Shown here in pieces: positions 4,532-23,383 of a stretch of 23,384 nucleotides of DNA (within the stretch, counting starts at the first letter, position 1; each line of letters opens with the position of its first letter). A program made the position numbers and the translations under genes. This stretch comes from a virus, in IMG/VR virus record IMGVR_UViG_3300042338_000363, positions 1 through 23,384 of that record. One strand, given 5' to 3'. Under the pieces are notes generated by a model. The model was not told the DNA's origin. It worked only from the letters and a program-made list of their open reading frames with translations, and made no database searches.

Positions 4532-5482
4532 ATGGCTTACTCTAATGCTGGGGCGATCATTCGCCATGACATCAATTCGTACGTCTTACAGGCGGCGAGC
4601 GTTGAAACCACACTGGTAGCGCAGAAAGTTCTTCCCGCGCTGTCAGTTTCTTCCCGTGCGGCAACCTATCCCAAGATCAAGGTTTCCAAAGGGGAACTCT
4701 TGAAGGCGGCGGCGGACACGCTTCGCGGCGCAAACGGATCGTACAACGAGATTTCTCGTTCCTATGAATCTGACAGTTACGACTGTTTGGATCGCGGGCT
4801 TGAAGAGCGGATCGACGACGCGTTCACACGCGACATGGATCGGTTCTTCGACAACGAAAAGATCACCGCCCAGATGTTGCTCCGCAATATCATGCTCGCG
4901 GCTGAAGTTCGTTGCGCTGCGAAGGTCATGGACACGGGAGTGTTCACGACGACCAACGGAAGCGTTGCTTACTCGGAAGGAAACATTGCGACCATCGACT
5001 TTGCCGCTGACTTGTCGGCAGCTCAGGAGCGGCTTGCGATGTATGGCCAAGTCGCAAACACCCTGGTGCTGAATTTGAAGTTGTGGAATCGCATTCGTCG
5101 TTCGACGAAGTTCCAGGCTTACCTGTTCGGGAACCTCCCGAGCGGTATCTCCCGCACCGTTAAGCCGCAGGATGTGGGCGACGAGTTTGGGCTGAATGTT
5201 GTGGTGGCCGCTGGCACCAAGGACACCGCCAAGAAGGGGCAAACCGCTTCCTTGTCGTTCATCTGGCCTGACTCCCACGTCTGGCTCGGAAACGTCCAGA
5301 GCGGGGACTTCGCAGCCGGTGGCGCTGGCCGCACACTGGTTTGGAGCGAAGACTCCGACCTGTACACCACCGAAACCTACCGCGAGGAAGGTCGGCGCGG
5401 TGACATGGTTCGGGTTCGTCAGAACTGTGTGGAAAAGATCATCGACGAGACTGCCGGGCAGTTGATCGCAACACAGGTCTAA
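4532..5482 (+). CDS. Major capsid protein
   Basis: This 316-residue protein is the expected shell subunit (HK97 fold). It follows the decoration protein and is followed by a strong terminator, as expected for a highly expressed capsid gene. Features in order: an N-terminal arm (about 1-55), an E-loop-like region SKGELLKAAADTLRGANG (about 52-70), a helical segment with DRGLEERIDDAFTRDMDRFF (about 88-107) comparable to the spine helix, a P-domain/A-domain core with LVLNLKLWNRIRRS (about 175-190) and a C-terminal beta region with VWLGNVQSG and DMVRVRQNCVEKIIDE. No separate cleavage site is evident. The start is preceded by an A/T-rich GCATTTTTT rather than a Shine-Dalgarno sequence. Confidence 0.85.
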   Translation: MAYSNAGAIIRHDINSYVLQAASVETTLVAQKVLPALSVSSRAATYPKIKVSKGELLKAAADTLRGANGSYNEISRSYESDSYDCLDRGLEERIDDAFTRDMDRFFDNEKITAQMLLRNIMLAAEVRCAAKVMDTGVFTTTNGSVAYSEGNIATIDFAADLSAAQERLAMYGQVANTLVLNLKLWNRIRRSTKFQAYLFGNLPSGISRTVKPQDVGDEFGLNVVVAAGTKDTAKKGQTASLSFIWPDSHVWLGNVQSGDFAAGGAGRTLVWSEDSDLYTTETYREEGRRGDMVRVRQNCVEKIIDETAGQLIATQV

Positions 5483-5858: not shown

Positions 5859-6254
5859 ATGGATTTCCTTTCTGACATCGAAACGGGGATCGCTGAGGCG
5901 CTTGCGGGGTTAACCGGCGTTCAGATTTTAGAGCGTGAGACGGACGAGATCCGGGCGACCAAGGCAGTTGTGGTGAAAGCGGAGATCGTTAAGGAGTTTT
6001 CCGCAGGCTCGCGAATCTGGGAAGTGGAGATTGAGGTCGCCTTGCGAGTGAACCGGATGGAACACGACGCCGATGTCGCAAAGGATACGTTCCAAGACAT
6101 GTTCGCCTTAGTCTGTAACACGGACAAAGAAGACATCTGCGACCCGGCAAAGGTGACTCTGTTTTCGTGGTATGTCCAAGGGACTTCGAGCCAATGGGCG
6201 CAGGATGTCTCGGTGCAGTCGGTGAAGGTTCGCTGTCACGCTCAGCAGGTCTAA
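5859..6254 (+). CDS. Putative tail terminator / tail completion protein
   Basis: This 131-residue protein starts MDFLSDIETGIAEALAGLTG and has an alternating helix/strand pattern. An N-terminal helix is followed by strands (AVVVKAEIVKEF, WEVEIEVALRVNR), then a long helix (DVAKDTFQDMFALVCN) and a final strand pair (SVQSVKVRCHAQQ). This alpha-beta layout, at 120-140 residues, is that of tail terminator proteins (lambda gpU type), which cap the tail tube and join it to the head. Position between a connector gene and the probable tube gene fits. The stop TAA (6252-6254) overlaps the AGTTGACA element of the next gene. No sequence-specific family motif was recognised. Confidence 0.5.
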   Translation: MDFLSDIETGIAEALAGLTGVQILERETDEIRATKAVVVKAEIVKEFSAGSRIWEVEIEVALRVNRMEHDADVAKDTFQDMFALVCNTDKEDICDPAKVTLFSWYVQGTSSQWAQDVSVQSVKVRCHAQQV

Positions 6255-13699: not shown

Positions 13700-14557
13700 A
13701 TGGGAGCCGAGGTAACTGTAGTTGAGCAAAACGTGGTGGTCGTCGAGGTCTCGACTGGGCTGCAAGGGCCAGCGGGGCCAGCAGGGCCAGCGGGAGCGAC
13801 CGGGCCAGCAGGCGCAACTGGCGCAACGGGGGCGCAAGGGGCGACCGGCCCACAAGGCCCGACAGGCTCAACAGGTGCGACTGGAACCGCAGGCGCAACA
13901 GGCCCGCAAGGCGCACAAGGCCCGCAGGGCATCCAAGGCGAAACGGGAGCCACGGGAGCCACGGGAGCCACGGGGGCAGATGGTAAAACTGTACGCAGCG
14001 GATCCGGCGCACCATCGAACGGGCTCGGAGTCGATGGTGACTATTACATTGACCCATCGACCTCACTAATTTACGGGCCGAAAGCCTCGGGGACATGGCC
14101 GAGTGGCGTCTCTTTGGTCGGAGCAACGGGGGCAACCGGTAGCACTGGAGCGACCGGAGCACAGGGGCCGCAGGGAGATACGGGCGCAACCGGCGCGACT
14201 GGATCGCAAGGCCCGCAGGGGCCAACGGGCGCAACTGGAGCGACAGGCAGTACAGGAGCAACTGGTGCACAAGGCCCAATCGGCGAGACCGGCCTCTCAT
14301 TTTCCCAACAGGTTTTCACGGGTAACGGCTCGCAAACTCAATTCCAGCTTTCGGCCACCAACACGAACGACCCGGAGCAGCTTTTGATCTACTTGGGCGG
14401 CGGAGCGAAACAACGCCCCGGCACGGACTACTCGGTTTCCAACGGGCTAATCACGTTTGTGAGCGCGCCCGCATCCGGCGTCTTGGTCGATGTCACCGCC
14501 AGCAAGACCGGCGCAATCTCTGACAACCTCGCCATTGCATTGGCCATCATACTCTAA
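13700..14557 (+). CDS. Collagen-like tail fibre protein
   Basis: This 285-residue protein opens with [20 protein letters not shown], then has G-X-Y triplets at about 20-95 and 141-198 (many GAT, GPQ and GPT triplets). Between them lies a short folded insert with [16 protein letters not shown], a common interruption in phage collagen-like fibres. The C-terminal 85 residues form a beta domain ([20 protein letters not shown]) ending in the hydrophobic [10 protein letters not shown]. Collagen triplets trimerise into stiff rods, so this is probably the shaft of a side or tail fibre. The upstream adaptor-like gene supports this. It ends in TAATG overlap with the large fibre gene. No Shine-Dalgarno sequence is visible. 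Confidence 0.85.
13943..13969 (+). repeat. Perfect triple 9-base repeat in collagen region
   Basis: ACGGGAGCC occurs three times in a row and encodes G-A-T triplets. Perfect copies in a region of otherwise mixed codons suggest recent slippage expansion, which would lengthen the fibre by three residues at a time. Confidence 0.8.
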
Positions 14558-21722: not shown

Positions 21723-21914
21723 TTATTTGGCGGCTAATTTACGCTGGCGCTTACTGTTCGGGTTGATCGGACGCCCGCCTTTTTTGCCGTTGCTGGCGGA
21801 GGCTGTTTGCTGGGCCGGAGTGTTTTTGGCGCGACCGATCCGGCCTATTTTGGCCTGATGCTCAGTAATTGCCGCCGAGATGTCGCCGCCGCAGTGTGGA
21901 CAGTTTGCATTCAT
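21723..21914 (-). CDS. Small basic protein with CxxC and KKGGRP motif
   Basis: This 63-residue protein is the last of the leftward set. It begins MNANCPHCGGDISAAITEHQ, a single CPHCGG knuckle, followed by an Arg/Lys-rich helix (AKIGRIGRAKNTPAQQ) and a tail with NGKKGGRPINP. The tail resembles the KGGRP minor-groove/AT-hook-like ends of several small phage proteins. It could bind DNA, or dimerise around zinc, but only one CxxC pair is visible, so a full zinc finger would need a second chain. ATG 21912-21914 overlaps the upstream stop (ATGA) in the leftward direction. The terminator lies directly downstream. Confidence 0.6.
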   Translation of the reverse strand: MNANCPHCGGDISAAITEHQAKIGRIGRAKNTPAQQTASASNGKKGGRPINPNSKRQRKLAAK

Positions 21915-22315
21915 GGCTGGGCCTCCAGCATCGCAGCTGCCATACAGCGCTCAAAATCAGCGAGCCACCCGATGTCATTTTTAGCAGTATTGGCGAGCGG
22001 CGGCAGGAGGACAACCGCCAGCCATTGGCCGGCTGGTGGCTCGGCTGAGACTGGCGCAAATTTAGCCTGCACATCGCACAGAGCTGCCCATGTGTCGTCG
22101 CGGGCGGATCCAATCCCGCACAGGACCAGAGGCTCCGCGCCTCTGTAGATGGTAAAAACTGGTCCATGTGGCACGACCCGGAAAGCGGGATAGCCGGGGA
22201 TCGGCCCACCGTCGGGGAGCAGGGCGGCGCAGGAGGCCACCGCACCGGGCTCGAGCGTGTCGAGCCGGTGGGCGACACTGTTGCCGGTACAGAGGGTGAT
22301 GTGGTGCAGGAGCAT
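21911..22315 (-). CDS. Uncharacterised leftward phage protein
   Basis: This 134-residue protein begins MLLHHITLCTGNSVAHRLDT and ends near DIGWLADFERCMAAAMLEAQ. The middle is Pro/Gly-rich with strands (FTIYRGAEPLVLCG, GQWLAVVLLPP). Its helical end and compact size look like a folded cytosolic protein, but I recognise no motif. Its frame is preferred over the overlapping leftward frame (21862-22278) because it starts one nucleotide after the upstream stop and links by ATGA to the next gene. The sequence AATTAAA lies just before the ATG, similar to the tail of the repeated leader elements, though without a hairpin. Confidence 0.55.
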   Translation of the reverse strand: MLLHHITLCTGNSVAHRLDTLEPGAVASCAALLPDGGPIPGYPAFRVVPHGPVFTIYRGAEPLVLCGIGSARDDTWAALCDVQAKFAPVSAEPPAGQWLAVVLLPPLANTAKNDIGWLADFERCMAAAMLEAQP

Positions 22316-22316
22316 T

Positions 22317-22547
22317 TTAATTGGAGGAGGCTCGGGCGATGAATCCCTCCCCTAGTTGCGAAAAATCGACGCGGAATCCGCCGATCACTGCCGTTTTTGC
22401 GAGCAACCGAGCAGCCTGCTGAGGTGAGACTCCCTCAGGCACATTTAAAACCTCGTAGTGGCTGGCATTGCCGCTAGGGCAAACACCGATGGGCGCTGAT
22501 GGGTGAGCGGGGGCGATGCCACCCTGTGAGTTACATTTAAATTTCAT
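22317..22547 (-). CDS. Uncharacterised small protein (leader copy 1)
   Basis: The ATG at 22545-22547 gives a 76-residue protein starting MKFKCNSQGGIAPAHPSAPI and ending RASSN. An upstream start at 22595 is rejected because it would put the hairpin leader inside the coding region, while every other copy of the element sits immediately before an ATG. A Cys-rich N-terminus (C5, C23) is followed by SHYEVLNVPEGVSPQQAARL and a compact alpha/beta end with LAKTAVIGGFRVDF. No function is recognised. It lies one nucleotide before the next leftward gene. Confidence 0.6.
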   Translation of the reverse strand: MKFKCNSQGGIAPAHPSAPIGVCPSGNASHYEVLNVPEGVSPQQAARLLAKTAVIGGFRVDFSQLGEGFIARASSN

Positions 22548-22594
22548 AATTTTAAGAAGGGTTCCCCCTCCGAAGAGAGGGCGAGGGGAAGTCA
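22548..22594 (-). promoter_or_regulatory. Hairpin leader element, copy 1 (UUCG loop)
   Basis: Reading leftward, CCCTCTC pairs with GAGGGGG (plus 22564-22581) around a TTCG loop, with one G-U pair. Then come AACCCTTCTTAAAATT and the ATG at 22547. The stem base lies 16 nt before the ATG. Confidence 0.75.
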
Positions 22595-22942
22595 CTATTC
22601 GAGGATGTCCGAGGCATTCACGGAGTCTGCTGACGCCTCTTCCAAGTCAGCGCCCTCCCAGCCGCAACGCATGGCAAATGCCTCGGCGAGCGCCCTAGAG
22701 GTAAACCACGCAGGTTCCTCCCCTCTATTTGCGGAGGAGAACCCGTAAACAACTGCTGGGGAGCATGGCTCATTTGAGCCGAGCAGGGATAACTCAGAGA
22801 GGCGGTATGTTCCCGTGTCCCCGTCGGCAAACAGGCATTCAACCGAGTCTCCAGTTTTATTGATCATTTGCACTTTCTGGCCATTTTCTGGGAGGTTGTA
22901 ATTTGAGATCCAGTGAGTGGGGGCGAATGTCGTGTTGGTCAT
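22595..22942 (-). CDS. Uncharacterised leftward protein (leader copy 2)
   Basis: This 115-residue protein begins MTNTTFAPTHWISNYNLPEN. The segment GQKVQMINKTGDSVECLFAD continuing DGDTGTYRLSELSLLG (about 21-57) has the look of a small SH3-like beta barrel, a fold used by many phage-encoded small proteins. The second half has an acidic helical end (AEAFAMRCGWEGADLEEASA). I cannot name a family. The start is set by the hairpin leader directly upstream, with ATG at 22940-22942. Its stop lies just upstream of copy 1 of the same leader, so transcription of the leftward genes is probably continuous. Confidence 0.55.
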   Translation of the reverse strand: MTNTTFAPTHWISNYNLPENGQKVQMINKTGDSVECLFADGDTGTYRLSELSLLGSNEPCSPAVVYGFSSANRGEEPAWFTSRALAEAFAMRCGWEGADLEEASADSVNASDILE

Positions 22943-22983
22943 AATTTAAGAAGGTTGCCCCTCCGGAGAGGGGCGGGTTAGGA
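22943..22983 (-). promoter_or_regulatory. Hairpin leader element, copy 2 (UCCG loop)
   Basis: Reading leftward, GCCCCTC pairs with GAGGGGC (plus 22957-22974) around a TCCG loop, a 7-bp stem. Then come AACCTTCTTAAATT and the ATG at 22942. The stem base is 14 nt before the ATG. Confidence 0.78.
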
Positions 22984-23175
22984 TTAGAGGAGTGTTGCCG
23001 CTTGCCAAACTGGGGTCTCGGCGGGAAATCCACTTAGCGCTGCAACAGGGTCTGCGATTTTAGCCAAACGATCAGCGTGATCGGCGTTGCAAGCCTCAGC
23101 AACGAGGGCTGCGATGATTTCTGCCGGGCTCAACTTGCGGAGGTCAGAGACAGTGGGTGTATTTGTAGTGGTCAT
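22984..23175 (-). CDS. Uncharacterised small helical protein (leader copy 3)
   Basis: This 63-residue protein begins MTTTNTPTVSDLRKLSPAEI and continues IAALVAEACNADHADRLAKI. It is a short predicted helical bundle with one cysteine and a Pro/Ala-rich end. Its first three residues share the MT(T/N)T pattern with the next leftward protein. No function is recognised. The hairpin leader directly upstream fixes its ATG at 23173-23175. It is one of the three genes carrying this leader and lies between two copies of the element. Confidence 0.55.
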   Translation of the reverse strand: MTTTNTPTVSDLRKLSPAEIIAALVAEACNADHADRLAKIADPVAALSGFPAETPVWQAATLL

Positions 23176-23221
23176 AATTTTAAGAAGGTTGCCCCCTCCG
23201 TAGAGGGGGCGGGTTGGGGTG
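23176..23221 (-). promoter_or_regulatory. Hairpin leader element, copy 3 (UACG loop)
   Basis: Reading leftward, GCCCCCTC pairs with GAGGGGGC (plus 23191-23210) around a TACG loop, an 8-bp stem. Then come AACCTTCTTAAAATT and the ATG at 23175. The stem base is 15 nt before the ATG. It fills the whole gap between two genes. Confidence 0.8.
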
Positions 23222-23383
23222 TTAGGCGTGTGGGTTTTCGAGTGTCACTTCTAGGGACGACTTAGAGACCCAGACCAGCCCCCAGCTCATCTCTATTTCC
23301 ACGGCGGTGATTGCTGCGTTTTTGCTAAACTCAGCAGCGGCGATTTCTTTGGCTTCAGTCAGTGTGGTTGGCTTTTTCGTCAT
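23222..23383 (-). CDS. Uncharacterised small leftward protein at window edge
   Basis: A 53-residue ORF starts at ATG 23381-23383, one base from the window end, and stops at TAA 23222-23224. The product begins MTKKPTTLTEAKEIAAAEFS and ends VSKSSLEVTLENPHA. An N-terminal helix with alternating Lys/Glu is followed by strands (AITAVEIEMSWGLVWVSK). Its upstream region, and any hairpin leader, lies beyond the window. No function is recognised. Its translated frame is clean and the next leader element starts straight after its stop, which supports it as a gene. Confidence 0.6.
   Translation of the reverse strand: MTKKPTTLTEAKEIAAAEFSKNAAITAVEIEMSWGLVWVSKSSLEVTLENPHA

Follow-up and report, generated by a model that had tools for sequence, protein, structure and literature searches.

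The window analysed here is the whole 23,384-base stretch of an IMG/VR record, in which the portal, tape-measure, endolysin and holin genes run rightward and the right end is occupied by a leftward block of small genes (Table 1). The 53-aa upstream gene gave no Pfam or PHROG match, and no relatives of the 63-aa or 115-aa genes were found when close ones were sought in IMG/VR. All three real gaps in the leftward block (46, 41 and 47 nt) hold a copy of the element described below; the junctions at 22315/22317 and 21911/21914 overlap or nearly touch and do not carry it, because there is no room there. An SD sequence of 4 nt or longer was found for just 9 of 26 window genes (window 326-23175), and SD-poor initiation is therefore normal for this phage.

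Table 1. Genes and hairpin-bearing gaps of the leftward block at the right end of the window
Feature	Positions	Strand	Description
Upstream small gene	23222..23383	-	53 aa, ATG at 23383, at the contig end
Copy 1, whole intergenic gap	23176..23221	-	46 nt: stop, 11 nt CACCCCAACCC, hairpin, 15-nt linker, ATG at 23175
Copy 1, hairpin	23191..23210	-	GCCCCCTC-TACG-GAGGGGGC, 8 bp
63-aa gene	22984..23175	-	behind copy 1
Copy 2, whole intergenic gap	22943..22983	-	41 nt: stop, 9 nt, hairpin, 14-nt linker, ATG at 22942
Copy 2, hairpin	22957..22974	-	GCCCCTC-TCCG-GAGGGGC, 7 bp
115-aa gene	22595..22942	-	behind copy 2
Copy 3, whole intergenic gap	22548..22594	-	47 nt: stop, 13 nt, hairpin, 16-nt linker, ATG at 22547
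Copy 3, hairpin	22564..22581	-	CCCTCTC-TTCG-GAGGGGG, 7 bp including one G.U
76-aa gene	22317..22547	-	behind copy 3
134-aa gene	21911..22315	-	anchor for finding relatives

Each hairpin lies wholly between the upstream stop codon and the next ATG. A preliminary description had reported three gaps of 41-47 nt, each with a 7-8 bp stem, a UNCG loop closed by C-G and then an ATG, with the base of the stem 14-16 nt from that ATG, and the coordinates and sequences bear this out. The loop is UACG in copy 1, UCCG in copy 2 and UUCG in copy 3, and the orientation with respect to transcription is the same in all. The stem is preceded by a C/A-rich segment of 9-13 nt (CACCCCAACCC, TCCTAACCC and TGACTTCCCCTCG; 11, 9 and 13 nt from stop to stem in copies 1, 2 and 3) and followed by a Y/A/U-rich linker of 14-16 nt without an SD sequence (AACCTTCTTAAAATT, 15 nt, in copy 1; AACCTTCTTAAATT, 14 nt, in copy 2; AACCCTTCTTAAAATT, 16 nt, in copy 3). 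Copy 3 is the most diverged of the three.

Hairpins were counted as C(UNCG)G loops on stems of at least 7 bp with at most one G.U pair, and these three were the only ones on either strand of the window, compared with a mean of 0.074 and a maximum of 1 in 500 dinucleotide shuffles of the window. Per-gap shuffles gave probabilities of 0.0001 to 0.0009, and the repeated UNCG element is real and non-random. The gap MFE was -19.8 for copy 1 and -16.6 for copy 2. In copy 3 the UNCG hairpin, predicted at -12.3 kcal/mol, is not the MFE structure: a competing stem of 8 bp around a 12-nt loop came out slightly better, at -13.4. The start regions of copies 1 and 2 were predicted to be largely unpaired (0.91 and 0.87). 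An effect of the hairpin on opening the start region was not seen in folding against shuffles: predicted accessibility was about the same after the stop-to-hairpin part was shuffled, with no clear difference.

Two relatives, both IMG/VR phages, were found with the 134-aa gene, one close (39 kb) and one more distant (36.7 kb), in which the protein is 93% and 65-66% identical; no relatives of this gene were found in GTDB genomes. The 36.7-kb phage has an integrase-like gene, on a reading of its translation. Each relative carries a single copy of the element, compared with three in the window. In the 39-kb phage (L039/L040) it reads GCCCCCTC-TTCG-GAGGGGGC-AACCTTCTTAAAATT-ATG and stands before the same 76-aa gene, so that the linker as well as the hairpin is conserved between this phage and the window. 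In the 36.7-kb phage (L042) the hairpin GCCCCTC-TTCG-GAGGGGC is followed by a different linker, AAAATAAA, with a stem-to-ATG spacing of 8 nt, and lies two genes before the 134-aa homologue. A DNA search of INPHARED with the 1,685-nt region gave no match, a search there for a near-identical element with a 52-nt query gave hairpin matches only (the best in Streptomyces phages and Roseobacter phage CRP-361), and a plasmid search gave nothing useful. Exact matches to the linker plus ATG came mostly from A/T-rich phages without a hairpin and were set aside as chance.

Changes in the pairs were read by hand, since the MAFFT alignment was out of structural register at the outer pairs, and no covariation count is claimed. 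Loop change across the copies is confined to the free N of UNCG. In copy 2 and in the 36.7-kb phage both arms are one base shorter together (4C/4G vs 5C/5G), and in copy 3, compared with the 39-kb relative, a C-G pair has become U.G and one outer pair is broken. No two-sided (compensatory) substitution was found among the window copies and the two relatives, and the signal of covariation within this family is weak, as is that of selection on pairing in the window phage's own copies. The comparison shows that most of the sequence change keeps the predicted hairpin and that the element is conserved in both relatives, with the linker changed in the more distant one.

The gap of the 39-kb relative is closest to copy 1 (43/46 identical, vs 39/49 to copy 3), whereas the sequence 3' of it resembles that of copy 3, with 57 of the first 60 nt of the 76-aa gene identical to the window, and the sequence 5' of it matches nothing in the window. 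Homology to this relative therefore breaks at the element. This suggests recombination at the element, with crossover in the repeats exchanging the genes that they flank, as judged from one genome pair in which part of the pattern could also stem from divergence of copy 3.

IMG/VR pattern scans for CCCCTCTNCGGAGGGG near an ATG returned many matches, many of them T-run terminators and many others intercistronic hairpins followed by an SD sequence and an ATG. Dozens of unrelated phage loci share the layout of stop, hairpin, linker and ATG, in many cases together with an SD sequence, and named examples are Streptomyces phage Comrade gp103/104 and Roseobacter phage CRP-361 gp38/39. In intercistronic gaps with an SD sequence the stem-to-ATG distance ranges from 8 to 27 nt and the stop-to-stem distance clusters at 6-8 nt, in a sample picked by one stem sequence and a nearby ATG and with the window copies themselves at 9, 11 and 13 nt. 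A stem start about 7 nt after the stop suggests that the hairpin is tied to the ribosome terminating there and not to the start that follows, and a start at this distance past the upstream stop in many unrelated phages is a candidate rule for an unbiased test. Stop-to-stem distances of 6-8 nt for the CCCCTCTNCGGAGGGG stem in gaps with an SD sequence are seen in L163, L177, L224, L153 and L205, among others, and 6-8 nt past the stop is about where the leading edge of a terminating ribosome would be.

Other SD-less gaps with a hairpin have a stem-to-ATG spacing of 12-13 nt, and a separate SD-less group (L128, L219 and L231) has the layout accaagt-hairpin-cactttaaacaa-ATG. In the orthologous gap before a 71-aa gene, L128 has CCCCCCTC-TTCG-GAGGGGGG and L219 has CCTCTC-ATA-GAGAGG, so that the hairpin is kept and the stem differs. 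The strict pattern of hairpin, CAA and ATG was found in genomes at three unrelated MAG loci only, all with an SD sequence. A T4-type match was rejected as a comparable gap because it falls within the gene 40 coding sequence. The preliminary description had proposed selection on RNA structure, and this proposal is supported in part: a structure at the RNA level is favoured by the confinement of loop change to N, the paired change of the arms, the hairpin with a new linker in L042 and the stem swap between L128 and L219, but the phage's own copies contribute no two-sided substitution.

A structure acting at the RNA level is likely, as judged from these comparisons. The explanation that we favour, which we hold to be about evenly balanced between right and wrong, is that the three gaps are copies of one intercistronic spacer cassette in which an RNA hairpin would serve mainly as an mRNA-end barrier, the linker would be an SD-independent start region and the repeats would provide homology tracts for gene exchange. 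Each cassette would run from just past the stop of one gene to the next ATG on the leftward mRNA. By what is generally known of ribosome footprints, the hairpin would lie past the leading edge of the ribosome that terminates upstream and near the rear edge of the one that initiates downstream, and it could therefore stay folded on translated mRNA. There it may act as a barrier between cistrons that shields mRNA ends or sets where they lie, either against exonucleases or after processing, with the U/A-rich linker left as the putative SD-independent start region, and neighbouring small genes may be gained or lost through the repeats as homology tracts. The mRNA-end barrier is the best-supported role because the gaps have no T-run terminator or sigma-70 promoter, there is no SD sequence upstream of the stem and no clear gain in accessibility was predicted. 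The element had been described as a leader before genes, and it does adjoin the ATGs; it is better described as an intercistronic spacer than simply as a downstream leader, and the stems of other phages are usually placed at a short distance past the stop.

The foremost competitor, which we regard as unlikely, is that the hairpin and U/A-rich linker together form a site where ribosomes enter the downstream gene independently of an SD sequence, through standby or positioning and an S1-type contact. Conservation of the linker up to the ATG, the narrow stem-to-ATG range in all copies, the lack of an SD sequence after the hairpins, the predicted unpaired start regions of copies 1 and 2 and the similar spacing in other SD-less hairpin gaps are all consistent with such a site, and given the conserved linker the element could act chiefly at the start site. 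However, the lack of an SD sequence is ordinary in this phage, predicted start accessibility is about unchanged by shuffling the stop-to-hairpin part, and the 36.7-kb relative has replaced the linker and shortened the spacing. Quite unlikely is a portable SD-independent start cassette in which a super-stable hairpin would sit behind the initiating ribosome as a standby site or insulator, be reused for successive genes and double as a recombination tract for small-gene swaps. Next comes the improbable case in which the short repeats are passive, having spread by duplication or recombination without any other role; it fits a repeat unit equal to the whole gap and the variable copy number among the relatives. 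Passive repeats do not account for a hairpin kept in L042 despite the changed linker, for loop change confined to N or for the same layout in unrelated phages.

There is slender reason to regard the hairpins as intrinsic or attenuating terminators whose U-tract was lost or never present. A T-run does follow the same hairpin sequence in other phages, in 57/77 non-intercistronic and 24/64 intercistronic cases, but the tail here is AACCTTCTTAAAATT, a scan found no terminator-like site at the gaps, and three terminators in series in a small operon would silence the downstream genes. A DNA-level inverted repeat acting independently of RNA, as a repressor operator, stoperator or recombination site, would suit inverted repeats that recur at gene boundaries in one phage and a homology junction at the element, and it is very improbable given that the sense-strand centre is always TNCG, with N the free position of the RNA tetraloop, that all copies are oriented alike with transcription and that in the L128/L219 group the hairpin persists although its stem sequence changes, which would not be expected of a sequence-specific operator. 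A split ribosome-binding site of the T4 gene 25/38 type, in which a hairpin shortens the distance from a far SD sequence to the ATG, is scarcely credible: the hairpins do lie between coding regions just before an ATG, but the sequence contradicts it, with no SD sequence before them (CACCCCAACCC, TCCTAACCC, TGACTTCCCCTCG) and the sole GGAGG within the stem.

The element belongs with the phage intercistronic UNCG hairpins, with which the window copies share a UNCG loop on a complementary stem and an intergenic location, and it resembles the SAS/ESAS repeats and the PeSL cassettes; its class is already known. The PeSL cassettes of T4-type phages, said to have been described by Arbiol in 2010 and Comeau in 2014, reportedly join an early promoter to a stem-loop terminator, and the likeness lies in a repeated intergenic stem-loop cassette thought to mediate the shuffling of small genes. 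The window copies fall outside that group, since a scan for promoters of the sigma-70 type only and for T-run terminators found neither at the gaps. They also fall outside the Rfam families, with two matches only, both far below the gathering score and one on the opposite strand partly over copy 1.

The preliminary description knew of no described family with this element, but both CUUCGG hairpins (PMC8948821) and the start-associated repeats of Cluster K mycobacteriophages (PMC3203893) were already on record. According to the summary in PMC8948821, phage genes commonly have hairpins of the CUUCGG type between them, and the mRNA of T4 gene 32 owes stability to a 5' hairpin of this type. The phage intercistronic hairpins of Tuerk et al. 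1988, as summarised there, are like those of the window in their C(UNCG)G loop, up to about 8 pairs, intergenic location and placement on the transcribed strand; relative to that summary the window differs in that just one of its loops is UUCG, the other two being UACG and UCCG, and in that the hairpin is part of a whole-gap cassette that recurs and whose linker, conserved and SD-less, reaches to the ATG. The SAS/ESAS repeats, start-associated repeats with inverted repeats, similarly abut the starts of some of the non-structural genes, and in about half of the cases an inverted repeat lies immediately before them (PMC3203893). In Cluster K the SAS is a 13-bp GGGATAGGAGCCC that has an SD-like core and is found 11-19 times per genome, and the ESAS is an inverted repeat of 17 bp that is imperfect and mostly has a spacer of 4-13 nt (PMC3203893), whereas the window has, in 3 copies, an SD-less linker and a perfect or near-perfect stem of 7-8 bp with a 4-nt UNCG loop. 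The window element is therefore not a member of that family, its ATG-adjoining sequence being AACCTTCTTAAAATT and not GGGATAGGAGCCC and its inverted repeat 7-8 bp and not 17. The translation-enhancing stems of T4 genes 25 and 38 are alike in being intercistronic hairpins close to an ATG, but they lie between the SD sequence and the ATG (PMC3014915), and the window stems have no upstream SD sequence. The window adds a clean repeated example to the long-known, poorly explained super-stable hairpins between phage genes.

Elsewhere in the window, several starts have a pyrimidine-rich and then A/T-rich 5' sequence, for example CCGACCTCTTAAA-ATG at 5859 and CCTCCTCCAATTAAA-ATG at 22315. A 316-aa ORF at 4532-5482, in the probable capsid region, had 0 tblastn matches in 50,697 phage records, and an ORF at 13700-14557 with long collagen-like Gly-X-Y repeats probably encodes a tail-fibre type protein.
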